DNA from: an uncultured Alphaproteobacteria bacterium
GTDB taxonomy: Bacteria > Pseudomonadota > Alphaproteobacteria > HIMB59 > GCA-002718135
Length of the DNA stretch: 64,000 nucleotides
Assembly (NCBI GenBank): GCA_902607435.1
Contig: CACLJX010000003.1
Coordinates: 1 to 64,000 of the forward strand
Direction of reading: 5' to 3'
Part shown: positions 53,120 through 59,596 of the stretch, in pieces
How positions within the stretch are numbered: position 1 is the first letter of the stretch
Layout: every line of letters starts with the position of its first letter
Notes under the pieces: model-generated
Databases searched by the model: none
What the model was told of the DNA's origin: nothing
The model's input: only the letters and a program-made list of their open reading frames with translations
Position numbers and translations under genes: made by a program

Positions 53120-53186
53120 CGGAGAGAAGGATTTGAATTCTCGATAATATTGCTATTATACACGCTTTCCAAACGTGCTAATTAAA
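53120..53186 (-). repeat. Degenerate tRNA-Ser(GGA) 3'-half fragment / att site 1
   Basis: cggagagaaggatttgaattctcgataatattgctattatacacgctttccaaacgtgctaattaaa; aligns to the intact tRNA with substitutions and a short deletion. Confidence 0.85.
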
Positions 53187-53200
53187 CCCCACTTCACTCA

Positions 53201-53494
53201 TCATGCACCAGCATTGGTAAGATAGGAAATTGAAAATTCAGCTTCCAATATTTCTTTCATAAAGTCTTCAAATCCATTCTCTATTCTAAAACCCAGATAT
53301 GCTTGATGGTCCTCTTTTGTCTCCCATTGTTCGTATATCCACATTGTTTTGTTATCTTCACCAACTAAAAGTTCGATATGCTTAAATCCCTTGTGTGTTC
53401 TTGTCACTGAAAATCCATCGTCACTTTTTGCCCACTCAATAAGCTTCGACGCTCCTTCTTCATGACACGGACACTTAACAATTACATAAATCAT
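53201..53494 (-). CDS. Antibiotic biosynthesis monooxygenase (ABM)-like protein
   Basis: IVKCPCHEEGASKLIEWAKSDDG...MWIYEQWETKEDHQAYLGFR. Confidence 0.82.
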   Translation of the reverse strand: MIYVIVKCPCHEEGASKLIEWAKSDDGFSVTRTHKGFKHIELLVGEDNKTMWIYEQWETKEDHQAYLGFRIENGFEDFMKEILEAEFSISYLTNAGA

Positions 53495-53573
53495 TTTTCA
53501 CTCCTTTATAGTTTTTATTGAATTATTTTTAATAATACTATCAAAATTTAATCAAAAATATAGTAGTTTATTG

Positions 53574-53642
53574 TGGAGAGAGAGGGATTCGAACCCTCGA
53601 TAATGTTTCCACTATACACGCTTTCCAAGCGTGCTGATTAAA
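53574..53642 (-). repeat. tRNA-Ser(GGA) 3'-half fragment / att site 2
   Basis: 69 nt colinear with the intact tRNA 3' end through D-loop edge; differences mainly in the variable arm; tRNA 5' half missing. Confidence 0.92.
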
Positions 53643-53702
53643 AACAAATTCTAGAGTTTCCAAGAAAAATTAAAGGTGGTTATTAAATTGATTGATGTCA
53701 GG

Positions 53703-53720
53703 TTGCTACCTATGTGCTAC
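53703..53720. repeat. Putative integrase arm-type direct repeat (TTGCTAC-CTAT-GTGCTAC)
   Basis: Begins 61 nt right of the att core end at 53642. Confidence 0.6.
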
Positions 53721-53887
53721 CAAATACATTTTTGCTAAAAAATCGTTAGAAAAATAATCAATTAATTGAACCAAATTAATAAAATGAAAAAAACTCTTGT
53801 TACTCGTTGGGTTGGTTGTTTTCTTAAAGCCAAGTTGCTAGAAAATAAAAAATGATTTAGAATAAGTAAAGATTGGAGTAATTAATT

Positions 53888-53983
53888 ATGGCAAAAGGAT
53901 TAAATAAAAAAAAAGAAGTTAAAAAGCCTAAAAAAAGCATTAAGGAAAAAAAAGCCGCCAAAAGAGAAAAAAAGAAAAAATAA
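53888..53983 (+). CDS. Very small lysine-rich protein, 31 aa
   Basis: Translated by eye: MAKGLNKKKEVKKPKKSIKEKKAAKREKKKK; SD-like TTGGAG upstream. Confidence 0.55.
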   Translation: MAKGLNKKKEVKKPKKSIKEKKAAKREKKKK

Positions 53984-53997
53984 TTTGGAGAAAATAA

Positions 53998-54252
53998 ATG
54001 GCTGAACTACCACCAATCAAGAAACCTTCAAAACAATCTTCAAATGGACTAAATTACTTTTTTGCCCCAACAAAAGGAAAAAAATCTCGGTTAAAATGGA
54101 TTTTAGAAAACCCCACAAATTGTGCGGCTACTTTTGGAGGACTAGGTTTTTTATTTGGTGTAACAATCGAGGGTGGTGGATTAATATCTTCTTTAATATG
54201 GAGTGGAATAATGGGTGTATTAATTTATTTTATATTTCGTATTTTAAGGTAG
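53998..54252 (+). CDS. Small predicted membrane protein, 84 aa
   Basis: SD TTTGGAG upstream; C-terminal hydrophobic hairpin. Confidence 0.65.
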   Translation: MAELPPIKKPSKQSSNGLNYFFAPTKGKKSRLKWILENPTNCAATFGGLGFLFGVTIEGGGLISSLIWSGIMGVLIYFIFRILR

Positions 54253-54285
54253 TCGCTCCTTGAACATTAACTAAATCTAAAGGGT

Positions 54286-54312
54286 ACACGCTTTCCAAGC
54301 GTGCTGATTAAA
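54286..54312 (-). repeat. Core-only tRNA-Ser att site 3
   Basis: Exact 27-nt ACACGCTTTCCAAGCGTGCTGATTAAA without the T-arm/acceptor half. Confidence 0.9.
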
Positions 54313-54373
54313 AACAAAGTCTAGGATTTGTAAGGAAAATTAAACGTAAAAAATTAAATATCTGGTGTGTAAA

Positions 54374-54391
54374 TGCGTCGTATGTACGTCG
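54374..54391. repeat. Putative integrase arm-type direct repeat (TGCGTCG-TATG-TACGTCG)
   Basis: Begins 62 nt right of the core end at 54312. Confidence 0.65.
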
Positions 54392-54398
54392 AGAATTT

Positions 54399-54974
54399 TT
54401 ATAATTTTTTCCAATCAACATGAAACATAGCTTCATTACGTCGAAGCATCGGTAGAGTAAAAGGTGCATTGTATGTTGCCTTAATAGCAGGACCTATAAT
54501 TTCTATTTTATCTTCTATTAGATTCTCTTTCAGAATTTTCTTATGTTTATTAAAGTTCTTATCGGTTAATCTACCTGAGTATTTGATAACAGCATAGTAA
54601 CCTTCTTCTATAGTTATGAGCTCAACTCTAGAATCGGTAGGAACAGGGGCTGTTTTTTTTGTAAATTTTGAAGGAAGATAAAACTGCATTACCATTTCTG
54701 AACTTTCCTCAGATTGTGTAACTGGTGTAGTCATTGTTATTTTTTCTGAATCTATGTTTGCTCCAGAAATATAATTGAAGAGATTCCGAAAACTGCTATT
54801 TTGATTGGTATAAGTTGCTTGAACAGCTAATCGGTCAACGTAATGACGAATTTCATAAACATCAGTTTGATGAACAATATTAAAAGATGATTCCTCGTAT
54901 GCCATTGCGTGTGAATATATAAATAGGAGTGTTAAAAAAATATTCAACCTAAAAAGTAAAACTAATTTAATCAA
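54399..54974 (-). CDS. SOUL-family haem-binding-like secreted protein
   Basis: Signal peptide; YEIRHYVDRLAVQATY, KITMTTPVTQ, YYAVIKYSGR, RRNEAMFHVDW. Confidence 0.88.
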   Translation of the reverse strand: MIKLVLLFRLNIFLTLLFIYSHAMAYEESSFNIVHQTDVYEIRHYVDRLAVQATYTNQNSSFRNLFNYISGANIDSEKITMTTPVTQSEESSEMVMQFYLPSKFTKKTAPVPTDSRVELITIEEGYYAVIKYSGRLTDKNFNKHKKILKENLIEDKIEIIGPAIKATYNAPFTLPMLRRNEAMFHVDWKKL

Positions 54975-54983
54975 AATTAGTGG

Positions 54984-55052
54984 CGGAGAGAGAGGGATTC
55001 GAACCCTCGAAAGTATTGCTACCTTACACGCTTTCCAAGCGTGCTGATTAAA
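54984..55052 (-). repeat. tRNA-Ser(GGA) 3'-half fragment / att site 4
   Basis: 69 nt with a single mismatch to the intact tRNA, then diverges. Confidence 0.95.
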
Positions 55053-55113
55053 TACAAAGTGGGGGCTTTCTAAGAAAAATTAATAGTTAAATTTAAAAAA
55101 CTTTGATGGAAAT

Positions 55114-55131
55114 GTTGCCGTATGGTTGTCG
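55114..55131. repeat. Putative integrase arm-type direct repeat (GTTGCCG-TATG-GTTGTCG)
   Basis: Begins 62 nt right of the core end at 55052. Confidence 0.7.
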
Positions 55132-55167
55132 AGAAATTTACAATAAATCATGAAGAGCATTGAGAAG

Positions 55168-56475
55168 TTATTGAAATTTTTTAATTCCCTTATCAATTAA
55201 CAATTTCATTTTTTCCTTACGCCCTTTAATAGTTTGAATTTCATCATCATCTTCTTTAGCCCATTTGACTAATTCTTTATTTACCCATTTAATGACTTTT
55301 GTTGCTTTATCTTCAGAAAGAGAATTTTTACGTATAATTTTTTTAGAAATTCTATCGGTTAAAGTTTTTATATATCTCTCTTCTTTACTTTCTTCAGATA
55401 TAGAAAGTGTTTTATTTTCAATAGTTGCAACTTTATCTTCAATTACATCTGGTTTATTTTTACCACCTTCGTCTAAGGCATCGCATGCATAACCAAGTCT
55501 TTCTAATTCAAGTTCTTTACAAGATTTTTTTCTCCACACTTCATCCCAATATATTACAATTGGTTTTTCAAATTCTGCATCAGTAACTAATTTTCCTCTT
55601 TCATTGTCATTATACATACCGTAAGTGAAAGTTGCTTTGTATCTAGATCCATGCTCTTTTGAATCGTGCATTGTTTTACCTTGATGGTTAACTACTTGTT
55701 TGCCATTAATCCAAAGTTTAAAGTGTCCGTTATCTTTTTGACCCCATTTAACGTTTATAATAAAGTCAATCCATTGACCTCTATATGAATAAAATTCTTT
55801 TAGTGACATCAAGTTATATTTCCAATATTGTTTTTCACACCAATGATGCGTGTGATTTTCCCCAGTAGCTTCGTTCATAGATTCCAAAGAATTACTTGAT
55901 CCAAAACAAGCATCATATCTTTTCTCTACACCGCCTGATACAGAATTCCATAATTGAAATCCATCTTGATCGGAATTGTTAAATAACTTAAATTCCCACT
56001 GTGATGGCATTGGTCCTTGATTAGAGTGAAATTGTCCTAAGCCTGTCTTCCTATGAATTAATACATAATCTTCCGGTGGATATATAGACCAAGTAATCCA
56101 ATACTCCGAATTAGGTTTCATGTAGAAACTATCATTAACCGGTGTTTCTATTCTAGCAGTTGATGCTCCATCTCCTCTATCACAATCGCCTACCTCTGTT
56201 GTGCAAGCTAAACCTCTTAATTCATACCTCTGTGATGTATCTCCCCACCTAACTGGGAAACCGTCTTTAGCTTCAACTACATCATACACATATAAAAACT
56301 CTCCCTTTTTAATGCGTTTCTTTAAGTGTTTATTTGCCTTGAACTTCCAACCTTGAATGGTTGTATCCTTTTTTTTTATTCCAATATTCTTTTTAAGTAA
56401 ATCGTGTTTCTCTTTTGCAATCCCAACATTGCACCACAATAAACCCAAAACCAAGATCCCTAGGAATGTCTTCAT
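55168..56475 (-). CDS. Secreted polysaccharide lyase, heparin lyase I-like
   Basis: Signal peptide MKTFLGILVLGLLWCNVGIA; RYELRG, WSIYPPEDY, GQFHSNQG, WIDFIINVKWGQKDNGHFKLWINGKQVV, TFTYGMYND. Confidence 0.75.
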   Translation of the reverse strand: MKTFLGILVLGLLWCNVGIAKEKHDLLKKNIGIKKKDTTIQGWKFKANKHLKKRIKKGEFLYVYDVVEAKDGFPVRWGDTSQRYELRGLACTTEVGDCDRGDGASTARIETPVNDSFYMKPNSEYWITWSIYPPEDYVLIHRKTGLGQFHSNQGPMPSQWEFKLFNNSDQDGFQLWNSVSGGVEKRYDACFGSSNSLESMNEATGENHTHHWCEKQYWKYNLMSLKEFYSYRGQWIDFIINVKWGQKDNGHFKLWINGKQVVNHQGKTMHDSKEHGSRYKATFTYGMYNDNERGKLVTDAEFEKPIVIYWDEVWRKKSCKELELERLGYACDALDEGGKNKPDVIEDKVATIENKTLSISEESKEERYIKTLTDRISKKIIRKNSLSEDKATKVIKWVNKELVKWAKEDDDEIQTIKGRKEKMKLLIDKGIKKFQ

Positions 56476-56530
56476 TGATATAAATATATCACAAGCTGGG
56501 AAAAAATTTATCTAAATTTTCTTTTAGTAT

Positions 56531-56548
56531 GTTGTCGTATGGTTGCCG
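56531..56548. repeat. Putative integrase arm-type direct repeat (GTTGTCG-TATG-GTTGCCG)
   Basis: 48 nt left of the intact tRNA 3' end; same motif as 55114-55131. Confidence 0.7.
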
Positions 56549-56596
56549 AACAACTTATTTGAAAATTAATCGTTAAAGAAAATACTAGGTTTTTGG

Positions 56597-56683
56597 CGGA
56601 GAGAGAGGGATTCGAACCCTCGAAAGTATTGCTACTTTACACGCTTTCCAAGCGTGCTGATTAAACCGCTCTCACATCTCTCC
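56597..56683 (-). tRNA. tRNA-Ser (anticodon GGA)
   Basis: GGAGAGATGTGAGAGCGGTTTAATCAGCACGCTTGGAAAGCGTGTAAAGTAGCAATACTTTCGAGGGTTCGAATCCCTCTCTCTCCG; 7-bp acceptor stem, long variable arm, GGA anticodon. Confidence 0.96.
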
Positions 56684-56804
56684 GTTTGAAGTTGCAAGAG
56701 CTAAATGGAGGATAAAACCAAGTTAATCACTAATATTTTTACTACCTTGTTCACTCTAATTCTTGATTCATATTAACACATTCTAGTATTCAATGGGAAA
56801 TTAA

Positions 56805-56832
56805 GTGACGCCAAGTGACGCAAAAGTGACAC
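56805..56832. repeat. GTGACGC direct repeats (two exact plus GTGACAC)
   Basis: GTGACGC at 56805-56811 and 56815-56821, GTGACAC at 56826-56832. Confidence 0.85.
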
Positions 56833-56888
56833 AACCAAACCAACAAGTAAGAAGAGTTTTTTCATCATAATTATCCTAAGTAATATTG

Positions 56889-57608
56889 TTACCAATTATA
56901 TTTATCCTTGCAATCTCGAACACTTATAAAATTTCCATCTTGATCATACACTTGCATTCTTTTGCAAGAATGATTGAACAATTCATCTCTAGATAATTTT
57001 CTTTGATTTGAATATCCATCCCAATATTGTTTAATTTCTTTATATTTACTTGCTAAAACTTCATCGCTAGCCATTTCCCATTGAGTAAAATATTGTTCGG
57101 CTAAAGTTGCTCTTTGTTGAATATTTTTATTTAACTCTCCCCATGTCAGCATGCCATTATAAACATTAATAAAATCCATGATTGTTTGTGACCAAATAAT
57201 TTGTGATTGAAGCAATAAGCTTTTTAATGAATTATTATTAATTTTATTGGGATCAATCCTAGTAATGCACACTTCAATCTCTTCGACAAAAGCAACGATC
57301 ATATCTTTTTCACTATTATTGGCACGCCCATTATCTGAAAGGTGTTGGTAGGATATTAATTGCGGAACAGGGGATTTTTTATTTAAATGATCATACTTAC
57401 TTTGTTTCTCAACATATTGAATACAGCCAGCGAATTCTTTAAGGATTGCATAGTCTTCAGGAGATCCTTTTACTTTTTGTTTAGCACCTTGTTTTTCAGC
57501 ATTTTCATTTAATTGTTTTAGAGCACCCGATAAAAATGAAGCCCAATCCGCGTGAACTTGAAAAGAAAAAAATAAGAATATGATTAATAAAATTGTTTTC
57601 ATCAACAC
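56889..57608 (-). CDS. Secreted protein of unknown function, 239 aa
   Basis: Signal peptide MLMKTILLIIFLFFSFQVHA; no family recognised. Confidence 0.7.
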   Translation of the reverse strand: MLMKTILLIIFLFFSFQVHADWASFLSGALKQLNENAEKQGAKQKVKGSPEDYAILKEFAGCIQYVEKQSKYDHLNKKSPVPQLISYQHLSDNGRANNSEKDMIVAFVEEIEVCITRIDPNKINNNSLKSLLLQSQIIWSQTIMDFINVYNGMLTWGELNKNIQQRATLAEQYFTQWEMASDEVLASKYKEIKQYWDGYSNQRKLSRDELFNHSCKRMQVYDQDGNFISVRDCKDKYNW

Positions 57609-58900
57609 CCCGTGAATATTGGAAAGCGTGTTTTAGTTGTGCTTCCACACGCATTTAAATTTTTTGGAATATCTGCGATTAATATTGGATCTTTATTAAA
57701 ATCTGAGTCTACACTAGAAGTGGCTTGCGAAGAGTTCGAGGAATATTTACTTTTACAAGCTTCCTTTATAGCAATCGCAGCTTCATCACTTGAAATATTT
57801 TTCATATTCTCAAGAATACAATCATTGTATCCGTCAGTATTAATTGTATTTGTTGTTTGTTTAGTTTGAGTTTGTTTTTTTGTTTGGGTTTTAGTTTGAG
57901 TTTTTGTTTCAGTTTTTTTTGTATTTTGTTTTGTAGTACTTGCAACTTGAGTTGATATTTCGTTCTCGTTATAAAATAAATTAGAAAAATTTTTATATGT
58001 TTGCAGTGCAACTAAACAATAATTGTCTCCTAAACCTATTTTATTTCTATTAAGAGTAGTAAAAATTTTTGAGTTATCAATTTTTTGTAGAATACGAAAA
58101 TATCTAGATGAAAATTTATCTCCAAGCCTTCCAAATCTAGAACAGGAACAGTAGAAATTTTTTTCACTTTTAGCTTCCGAGTATAAAGTTTTGGAACTTT
58201 CGCAAGGATTAAAATCAGGAAGATCAGACCTTGCATAAAATACCGCAGCATTTTCAGTATTTTTAGTTTTTATATATCCATTCCAAGGTCCGTCTCCTTT
58301 AAAACCAAGATATTTATCTGAACTTACTTGTTGAAGCATAAAAGAAAGTTGAGGTTGGTATGAACCATCACCTTTTAATCCCGCTGATTGTCCTATAATA
58401 ATTGCATTAAATAGGAATTCATCACTATTTTTGCATTTTCTTATAGAAATAGTGTTTCCAAATCTTAAGCATTTATTTTGCTTAGTTTGTATTTTGAAAT
58501 AAGAATTGGACCTATGAAGGAATAATTCTTCATTTTCAAATCTAAACAAGTATAAATTTTTTTTATATTCTCCTCCACCCCATTGGCCAGTGTAAAAATC
58601 TTCAGACAATTCATCATAGATTTTTACTTCAGCAAACAAATTAGTTTCAACTTTCTGTGTTTGATCATTCGTACTAGCAATATTTTTAAAATTCAAAAAA
58701 TCTTCCCTTGTAACTTCCTTGTCTGAAAATGGACAAATTTTTTCTTTGTTATAATATTCTACTGTCAAACCTCGTGGTGGCGGAATACCAGGAGTTTCAT
58801 AAATATTACCAGTAGAAGTTTTACAATAAAGTTTTTTTTCATACGCTTGTATTGAAAAAGAAAAAAACAAAACAAGGATTGTAATTAAAATTTTCATCAA
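57602..58900 (-). CDS. Secreted Cys-containing protein of unknown function with KTQTK-rich linker, 432 aa
   Basis: Signal peptide MMKILITILVLFFSFSIQA; linker TKKTETKTQTKTQTKKQTQTKQTT; C-terminal YNDCILENMKNISSDEAAIAIKEACKSKY. Confidence 0.7.
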   Translation of the reverse strand: MMKILITILVLFFSFSIQAYEKKLYCKTSTGNIYETPGIPPPRGLTVEYYNKEKICPFSDKEVTREDFLNFKNIASTNDQTQKVETNLFAEVKIYDELSEDFYTGQWGGGEYKKNLYLFRFENEELFLHRSNSYFKIQTKQNKCLRFGNTISIRKCKNSDEFLFNAIIIGQSAGLKGDGSYQPQLSFMLQQVSSDKYLGFKGDGPWNGYIKTKNTENAAVFYARSDLPDFNPCESSKTLYSEAKSEKNFYCSCSRFGRLGDKFSSRYFRILQKIDNSKIFTTLNRNKIGLGDNYCLVALQTYKNFSNLFYNENEISTQVASTTKQNTKKTETKTQTKTQTKKQTQTKQTTNTINTDGYNDCILENMKNISSDEAAIAIKEACKSKYSSNSSQATSSVDSDFNKDPILIADIPKNLNACGSTTKTRFPIFTGC

Positions 58901-59000
58901 TTCATCCTACCACGATTACGATACGGGATTAAGGGGGAAAATAACTAGAGAAAGAATAGGTTTTTAGTTGCTCAAAAGAACAACCAAAGCAAAATTAAAA

Positions 59001-59321
59001 TTAGCCCCGTCCAAATTGAGAGAGGTATAAATTACCTATGGGAAAGCGTTTGAGATAGTTAACCTCGTATTCAAATCGCCTTACGTTCTTGGACTTGCTT
59101 TTTGTCTTATCGAAGAAGATATCCAAGAGTTCGCCCAACTTAATTTGATTTAATCTTTCTGCTTTCTTTAACGTTAAGTAAGACCCGGTCTCTATCTGAG
59201 CTTCGATCTGATAAGCCCATTTGCTTGCATCACTCTTCTTCCAAAAGGATTTTGCAATGCTAATATTTTTCTTACGAACGCGAGCTTGCCACTTCTTACC
59301 GTGCTTAGTTAAATAAGCCAT
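59001..59321 (-). pseudogene. Truncated phage-type tyrosine integrase (N-terminal arm-binding/SAM-like region only)
   Basis: MAYLTKHGKKWQARVRKKNISIAKSFWKKSDASKWAYQIEAQIETGSYL...; stops at 106 aa, no catalytic RHRY domain. Confidence 0.8.
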
Positions 59322-59335
59322 TTATACCTTTCCGA

Positions 59336-59353
59336 GTGACGCATATGTGACGC
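59336..59353. repeat. GTGACGC-ATAT-GTGACGC direct repeat
   Basis: Two exact copies just upstream of the integrase remnant; same motif as 56805-56832. Confidence 0.85.
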
Positions 59354-59430
59354 AAGTATGTTACATGCGTTTCTCTTTGGTAATATTTGTTGGTTATCCT
59401 AGATTAATTCCTCTTGAGTCACGCTACACG

Positions 59431-59475
59431 ACACGCTTTCCAAGCGTGCTGATTAAACCGCTCTCACATCTCTCC
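59431..59475 (-). repeat. tRNA-Ser(GGA) 5'-half fragment / att site 6
   Basis: acacgctttccaagcgtgctgattaaaccgctctcacatctctcc, identical to the intact tRNA 5' half; 3' half absent. Confidence 0.95.
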
Positions 59476-59596
59476 GGCTTATTTTTCCTATGATTTATCA
59501 CAAAAAAAATCAATAATATAAATTATATTATCACATTAATGACATACCCTATATTAACTGCTATCATTGATTTATTAACAAAGGAGAAATATTTTT

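Follow-up and report, generated by a model that had tools for sequence, protein, structure and literature searches.

A 106-aa open reading frame in a 64,000-nucleotide stretch of an uncultured alphaproteobacterial genome (the window) is the 5' end of a tyrosine integrase gene that remained after an internal deletion of the catalytic part. The stump is located on a unit of an array at tRNA-Ser(GGA), and it is probably the deletion remnant on a non-autonomous tRNA-Ser cassette which was moved by an integrase supplied in trans. In this model, a tyrosine integrase gene was shortened to its 106-aa 5' stump, and the 2.8-kb cassette carrying it (56684-59457) entered the chromosome at tRNA-Ser(GGA) by way of the anticodon arm. 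This unit retains the substrates of an integrase, an att core and a matching putative arm site of 11-bp period at either end. This type B cassette and the integrase-free type A cassettes would be non-autonomous units, either CIME-like or satellite-derived, that an integrase acting in trans excises and inserts, now or until recently. The helper may be an element akin to those of the small autonomous int(+primase) kind that are present at other tRNA genes of these bacteria.

The integrase stump

The stump ORF reads from ATG to TAA on the minus strand (59001-59321). Residues 1-103 displayed 54-56% identity to the N-termini of full-length integrases of the family, which confirmed the original prediction of an integrase N-terminus. 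The similarity stops near codon 102, where the stump continues from YLSQF into GRG and the stop codon and the relatives continue as YLSELTGSMLARFRD... An AlphaFold model displayed strand-strand-strand-helix for residues 2-45 (E2-7, E10-17, E20-26 and H29-45) with a pLDDT of about 90, followed by helices of lower confidence. Identity and model agree in placing in the stump the beta-beta-beta-alpha N-terminal arm-binding domain of phage-type tyrosine integrases. The arm-binding domain is therefore predicted to be complete and the SAM-like core-binding domain to be retained in part, so that the earlier claim of a preserved arm-binding/SAM-like region appears right for the former and only partly right for the latter.

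Family and structure searches gave little additional information. The match to PF14657 (Arm-DNA-bind_4) was below the cut-off (E=0.011), no PHROG or NCBIfam family was matched, and Foldseek against the PDB returned nothing significant (best E 0.6), with the HPI integrase arm domain at rank 38 in the list. No frame of the stump ORF, or of the array around it, contained the catalytic domain PF00589, in agreement with the predicted stop before any catalytic domain, and an enzymatic role of the stump is improbable. Both a ribosome-binding-site-like sequence and an arm site are kept upstream of the ORF.

Organization of the array at tRNA-Ser(GGA)

The intact tRNA-Ser(GGA) gene is present here as a single copy. 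The core ACACGCTTTCCAAGCGTGCTGATTAAA corresponds to its anticodon arm and was identified six times in the 1.5-Mb genome, as five exact copies and one with 1 mismatch. All six copies are located inside 53160-59457 in a single orientation, and a reversed-pattern control gave 0 copies. The features of the array are as follows, with the strand in brackets where one applies.

53160..53186, degenerate copy of the core, probably older than the rest
53616..53642, att core plus a 3' half of the tRNA (53571-)
53998..54252 (+), type A cargo, 84-aa ORF of no family
54286..54312, type A att core that lacks the tRNA 3' half
54399..54974 (-), haem-binding SOUL protein (PF04832) as type A cargo
55026..55052, att core that bounds type A units, together with a 3' half of the tRNA (54981-)
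55112..55140, putative left-end arm region of the polysaccharide-lyase unit (type A), TTGCCGTATGGTTGTCGA, repeat D10
55168..56475 (-), type A cargo, polysaccharide lyase (PF14099)
56529..56557, putative right-end arm region of the polysaccharide-lyase unit (type A), TTGTCGTATGGTTGCCGA, repeat D10
56594..56683 (-), intact tRNA-Ser(GGA), integration target, at the junction of type A and type B units
56811..56834, putative arm-type site at the opposite end of the type B unit, GTGACGC-AAAA-GTGACAC (repeat D12)
56889..57608 (-), type B cargo, 239-aa ORF without a confident family assignment, its hydrophobic N-terminus suggesting secretion
57602..58900 (-), type B cargo, 432-aa ORF without a confident family assignment, its hydrophobic N-terminus suggesting secretion
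59001..59321 (-), 106-aa integrase stump, predicted whole arm-binding domain and start of the core-binding domain
59332..59355, putative int-side arm-type site, GTGACGC-ATAT-GTGACGC, 11-bp period, abutting the stump start codon upstream
59431..59476, att site at the outer end of the type B unit, displaced 5' half of tRNA-Ser(GGA) comprising core ACACGCTTTCCAAGCGTGCTGATTAAA, D-arm and acceptor strand

The type B unit (2.8 kb, 56684-59457) is located on the 5' side of tRNA-Ser(GGA) and is arranged, from its outer end, as displaced tRNA 5' half, arm site, stump and two cargo ORFs. It displays exact att cores at 56639 and 59431 and arm sites at 56811 and 59332, and the two arm sites match each other, with GTGACGC repeated at 11 bp. 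The putative arm-site sequence for binding by the 106-aa protein is TGCGTCACATATGCGTCAC. The unit's own genes are the stump and two ORFs without a known family, with neither integrase nor transfer genes.

The type A units are located on the 3' side of the tRNA gene, bounded by cores and mostly carrying a tRNA 3' half. There are three such units opposite the stump-bearing one, all with cores and without an integrase. ARAGORN called a second tRNA-Ser at the core region 53616-53642, where the native 5' half is missing. Some window units look disabled, since the site at 54286 is without the tRNA 3' half and right-end arms were not recognisable in two type A units. No replication or primase module was found among the window units, and no PADLOC match identified their cargo as defence genes.

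Putative arm-type sites across the family

Direct repeats of 8 bp, spaced with a period of 11 bp, lie upstream of 18 of the 21 integrase or stump starts, compared with 2% in shuffled sequence. Other spacings from 8 to 15 were found at only 0-2 of the 21 starts. These starts belonged to the bacterial family of the window genome and were distributed at several different tRNA or tmRNA genes. Similar repeats of 11-bp period were present at the ends of many integrase-free type A units. From their position and the plan of a lambda-type attP, we infer that these repeats are arm-type integrase sites. The matching of arm sequences inside units was not significant (p=0.07 over nine units) and is suggestive of paired arm specificity.

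Full-length relatives and diversity of stumps

Full-length integrases were detected in a 5.7-kb element at tRNA-Gln, which also encodes a VapE/DUF5906 primase-like protein (L093), in an element of about 5 kb at tRNA-Gly (L177), and behind a displaced tRNA-Gln 5' half with the same geometry as in the window (L094). These elements resemble phage satellites, and in both L093 and L177 a tyrosine recombinase is combined with cargo at a tRNA gene. Many full integrase genes, including those of L011, L012, L027, L029, L146 and other loci, have directly behind them a conserved mini-ORF for a transmembrane peptide of about 27-35 aa. A hairpin with the invariant loop AAGGCCTAT (GGGTTAGTGGTAAGGCCTATCACTAGCCC) follows several full integrases, often together with the mini-ORF, and the conservation of this loop across diverged integrases is beyond the needs of a plain terminator.

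Four stumps at tRNA-Gly (G063, G012, G101 and G014) displayed one common deletion scar, in which the catalytic part and the downstream mini-ORF are gone and the int terminator hairpin is kept. A single deletion, starting inside int and ending directly ahead of the hairpin, explains all four scars, the junction being read by eye. Pairwise comparison of these stumps gave dS of 0.30-0.78, dN of 0.02-0.06 and dN/dS of 0.04-0.11, with the frames kept. Where comparable, the flanking chromosome had diverged similarly, which fits long retention of the stump. The substitution pattern thus argues for selection on the tRNA-Gly stump lineage, unless recombination with full-length genes refreshed the stump.

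Stump lengths clustered below about 140 codons, and full genes started near 320. This clustering was not taken as proof of selection, because the search used an N-terminal query and the same pattern would follow from successive deletions.

The constraint on the four tRNA-Gly stumps, which combine kept frames, low dN/dS, one scar and a retained hairpin, bears on the tentative idea that a stump is a functional free arm-binding domain. Such a protein would occupy the arm sites and repress the int promoter or compete with a helper, and would thereby stabilise or control the cassette. The mechanism is plausible, since integrases at tRNA genes are often autoregulated via arm sites in attL (PMC2951348), and the window stump is accompanied by its ribosome-binding-site-like sequence and arm site and retains the arm-binding fold in the model. 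However, stops or frameshifts occur early in the stumps of G037, G011 and G069, and the type B ends of L078 and L086 are without any stump. The selection may also be older than the truncation or reflect the recombination mentioned above, and close relatives, which a selection test would need, are missing for the window copy. That arm-binding stumps are a selected, recurrent part of cassettes which lost the catalytic domain, retain a small protein recognising their arm sites and restraining their mobility, and rely on helpers, with tRNA genes hosting integron-like systems driven by borrowed integrases, seems unlikely.

Transfer of integrase-less and stump-bearing units

A 12.2-kb type A cassette without an integrase was near-identical in three species belonging to two genera. 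The copies of G043 (L069) and G106 (L070) were 98.9% identical over 12,281 bp, ending at the cores, and those of G106 and G105 (L071) were 99.6% identical, the alignment again stopping at the cores. The corresponding identities of rpoB fragments were 79.3% for G043/G106 and 90.9% for G105/G106. The copies are located as follows.

L069:908-13128
L070:3058-15277
L071:1323-14616, with extra genes

The cargo of this cassette comprises an ABC sugar transporter, a LacI regulator, SnoaL proteins, a histidinol dehydrogenase, an SDR and catabolic enzymes. A unit of 1.0 kb was also shared between G106 and G058, with 93.9% identity from core to core and 78.5% in rpoB.

Stump-bearing units displayed the same kind of exchange. 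A tRNA-Gly(GCC) unit with the integrase cut at codon 45 was 98.0% identical over 1,177 bp, att to att, between G070 and G092, where it occupied different array positions with flanks of 80.7% identity. Stumps at tRNA-Ser were identified in three relatives (G020, G026 and G095, with ORFs of 44, 46 and 68 codons). Their att and stump module was about 96% identical and followed by different cargo, and rpoB identity among them was 79-80%. Near-identical units from att to att amid diverged other DNA indicate that the transfer of integrase-less and stump-bearing units postdates the loss of the integrase. Site-specific recombination in trans would be the simplest mechanism, and homologous recombination through tRNA repeats could be another route for blocks with such ends. 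Among the options in the original prediction, mobilisation in trans is best supported, given att-to-att units of 98-99% identity in genomes with about 80% identity in other DNA.

These transfers also bear on whether the window unit is an immobile relic, that is, an old element decayed in place in an array that is a graveyard kept by the cargo genes alone. The degenerate core at 53160, the core at 54286 without its tRNA half, the deleted integrase and the stops in some related stumps are consistent with decay. However, comparable units were transferred recently and precisely, and the core of the window unit is identical to the others, with arms intact at both ends, which makes this explanation doubtful. 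The relic proposed earlier holds for the gene itself, which is a deletion stump, and stops or frameshifts occur in some stumps of other genomes; for the unit it fits poorly with the recent transfer of comparable units.

Search for an integrase or helper

A six-frame scan of the whole genome for PF00589 detected only one recombinase, of 352 aa, on another contig (C9:35899-36477), consistent with the earlier claim that the array holds no other recombinase; the assembly is fragmented and 84% complete, and absence from the remainder of the genome is unproven. A second integrase N-terminal relic, with two internal stops, was found at C2:82089-82349 (L003) beside tRNA-Arg(CCT). It is followed by an apparent acyltransferase fragment.

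The comparison set consisted of 110 genomes of the family; records of relatives are single-cell genomes of uncultured Alphaproteobacteria (e.g., AG-359-G09 and AG-913-F06) and marine MAGs, and the size of the genome and the structure of the family hint at the HIMB59/AEGEAN-169 order. The tRNA-Ser core was carried by 80 of the 110, and an intact integrase near it was found in none of these 80 genomes, drafts mostly 55-90% complete in which absence is not proof. Hence a catalytic domain at the same position in another strain, the counter-case named in the original prediction, did not appear. No phage-type integrase was located near the core among about 40 family matches listed, as compared by eye, and the lone integrase sharing a contig with the core among these matches was more than 200 kb apart.

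A full recombinase matching the N-terminus, for which a search of the rest of the genome and of phages had been suggested, was found neither in this 84% complete assembly nor in IMG/VR. IMG/VR was scanned with an integrase alignment, the 22-mer core, the type A arm, a generic pattern for arms and the hairpin of the int terminator; none of these scans, which ran without a positive control, gave a tRNA-Ser helper or other match. A relative's integrase retrieved only matches below 60% at the amino acid level from INPHARED, with the best rows at 31%. Since no intact integrase targeting tRNA-Ser was present in the 110 genomes and the core was absent from IMG/VR, the helper of the tRNA-Ser units is hypothetical.

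Most genomes of the family encode a single-copy recombinase of about 354-369 aa, represented in the window genome by the 352-aa C9 protein. Its presence as one copy in most family genomes, and as the sole complete recombinase found in the window genome, might indicate that this host enzyme moves the cassettes in an integron-like manner. This is very improbable, because the C9 protein (L001) gave weak scores with XerA/XerD/XerC models, far below the NCBIfam cut-offs of XerC and XerD, and matched no arm-binding or SAM family, whereas the cassettes bear arm sites of the phage-integrase type. Single-copy conservation fits chromosome-dimer resolution, a task for which the C9-type protein may be the only recombinase in these bacteria.

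An assembly or sequencing artefact that cut short a real integrase can hardly account for the truncation even in such a fragmented, incomplete draft, because the junction lies inside a 126-kb contig and junctions of this type recur in independent genome assemblies with different cargo.

Relation to known systems

The ssrA islands of Dehalococcoides are arranged in tandem and bounded by att sites, some of them without an integration module (PMC3146451). Like these islands and CIMEs, the units described here are in tandem at an RNA gene with att repeats and no integration genes of their own, and mobilisation with or by neighbours was proposed for those systems (PMC3146451). The type B unit combines att flanks with the absence of its own integrase and transfer genes, and a helper integrase may have moved it, as judged from the att-to-att transfer of comparable units. 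In contrast to CIMEs and the Dehalococcoides islands, the sites here are those of a tyrosine integrase with arm repeats of 11-bp period, units are as small as 0.7 kb, the same tRNA has no integrase-bearing neighbour, and an integrase-less unit alone crosses genera.

Tycheposons and the tRNA cassettes of streamlined plankton, as far as the accounts go, are likewise cargo islands at tRNA genes with tRNA-fragment repeats and exchange between genera (PMC10872708, PMC7771536). The Methylophilaceae tycheposon is described with a tyrosine recombinase (PMC10872708), whereas the recombinase in the window array is truncated or absent. Arm-site anatomy and stumps are not among the features that these accounts describe for Methylophilaceae and Actinomarinales cassettes (PMC10872708, PMC7771536).

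The 5.7-kb L093, with int and a primase-like gene, is similar to small phage satellites of the PICI/PICMI type, but the window units have neither a primase nor an intact integrase. In their working they resemble integron cassettes, being small gene-plus-site units in tandem with the recombinase encoded elsewhere. Unlike in integrons, the units recombine at what looks like the anticodon arm of a tRNA, accompanied by putative arm-type sites at attP-like ends, and no attC was seen among the sites recognised. No IntI integrase was found, the sole recombinase detected in the genome being Xer-like and under the NCBIfam cut-offs. CIME-like islands and plankton tRNA cassettes are thus already known in the form these reports give (PMC3146451, PMC10872708, PMC7771536). 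The defined ends, the movement of integrase-less units between genera and the recurrent arm-binding stumps distinguish the present arrays.

Recognisable mobile elements are scarce in streamlined ocean bacteria, although the gene content of these bacteria is strongly variable. The arrays provide concrete units of exchange, cassettes that range from one gene to 13 kb, end at defined sites, lack an integrase and were recently transferred between genera. Cassettes without an integrase would be missed by integrase-based surveys, and the arm repeat of period 11 together with tRNA cores allows a search without an integrase marker. The discovery of a helper would open two questions to testing, whether tRNA genes are integron-like platforms and whether stumps are regulators or mere marks of deletion.

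Flanks of the target tRNA genes

The type B insertion parts the intact tRNA-Ser from a native-looking upstream region (56684-56760 is now upstream; the displaced region lies at 59477-59520). With the apparent native region displaced to 59477 onward, the inserted element presumably now provides the promoter of tRNA-Ser. In L170 (G021:C4, 3198-4278), a full integrase reads away from the 5' side of tRNA-Gly and a stump is located on the 3' side. This tRNA-Gly is therefore flanked by two element types, as is the tRNA-Ser of the window.
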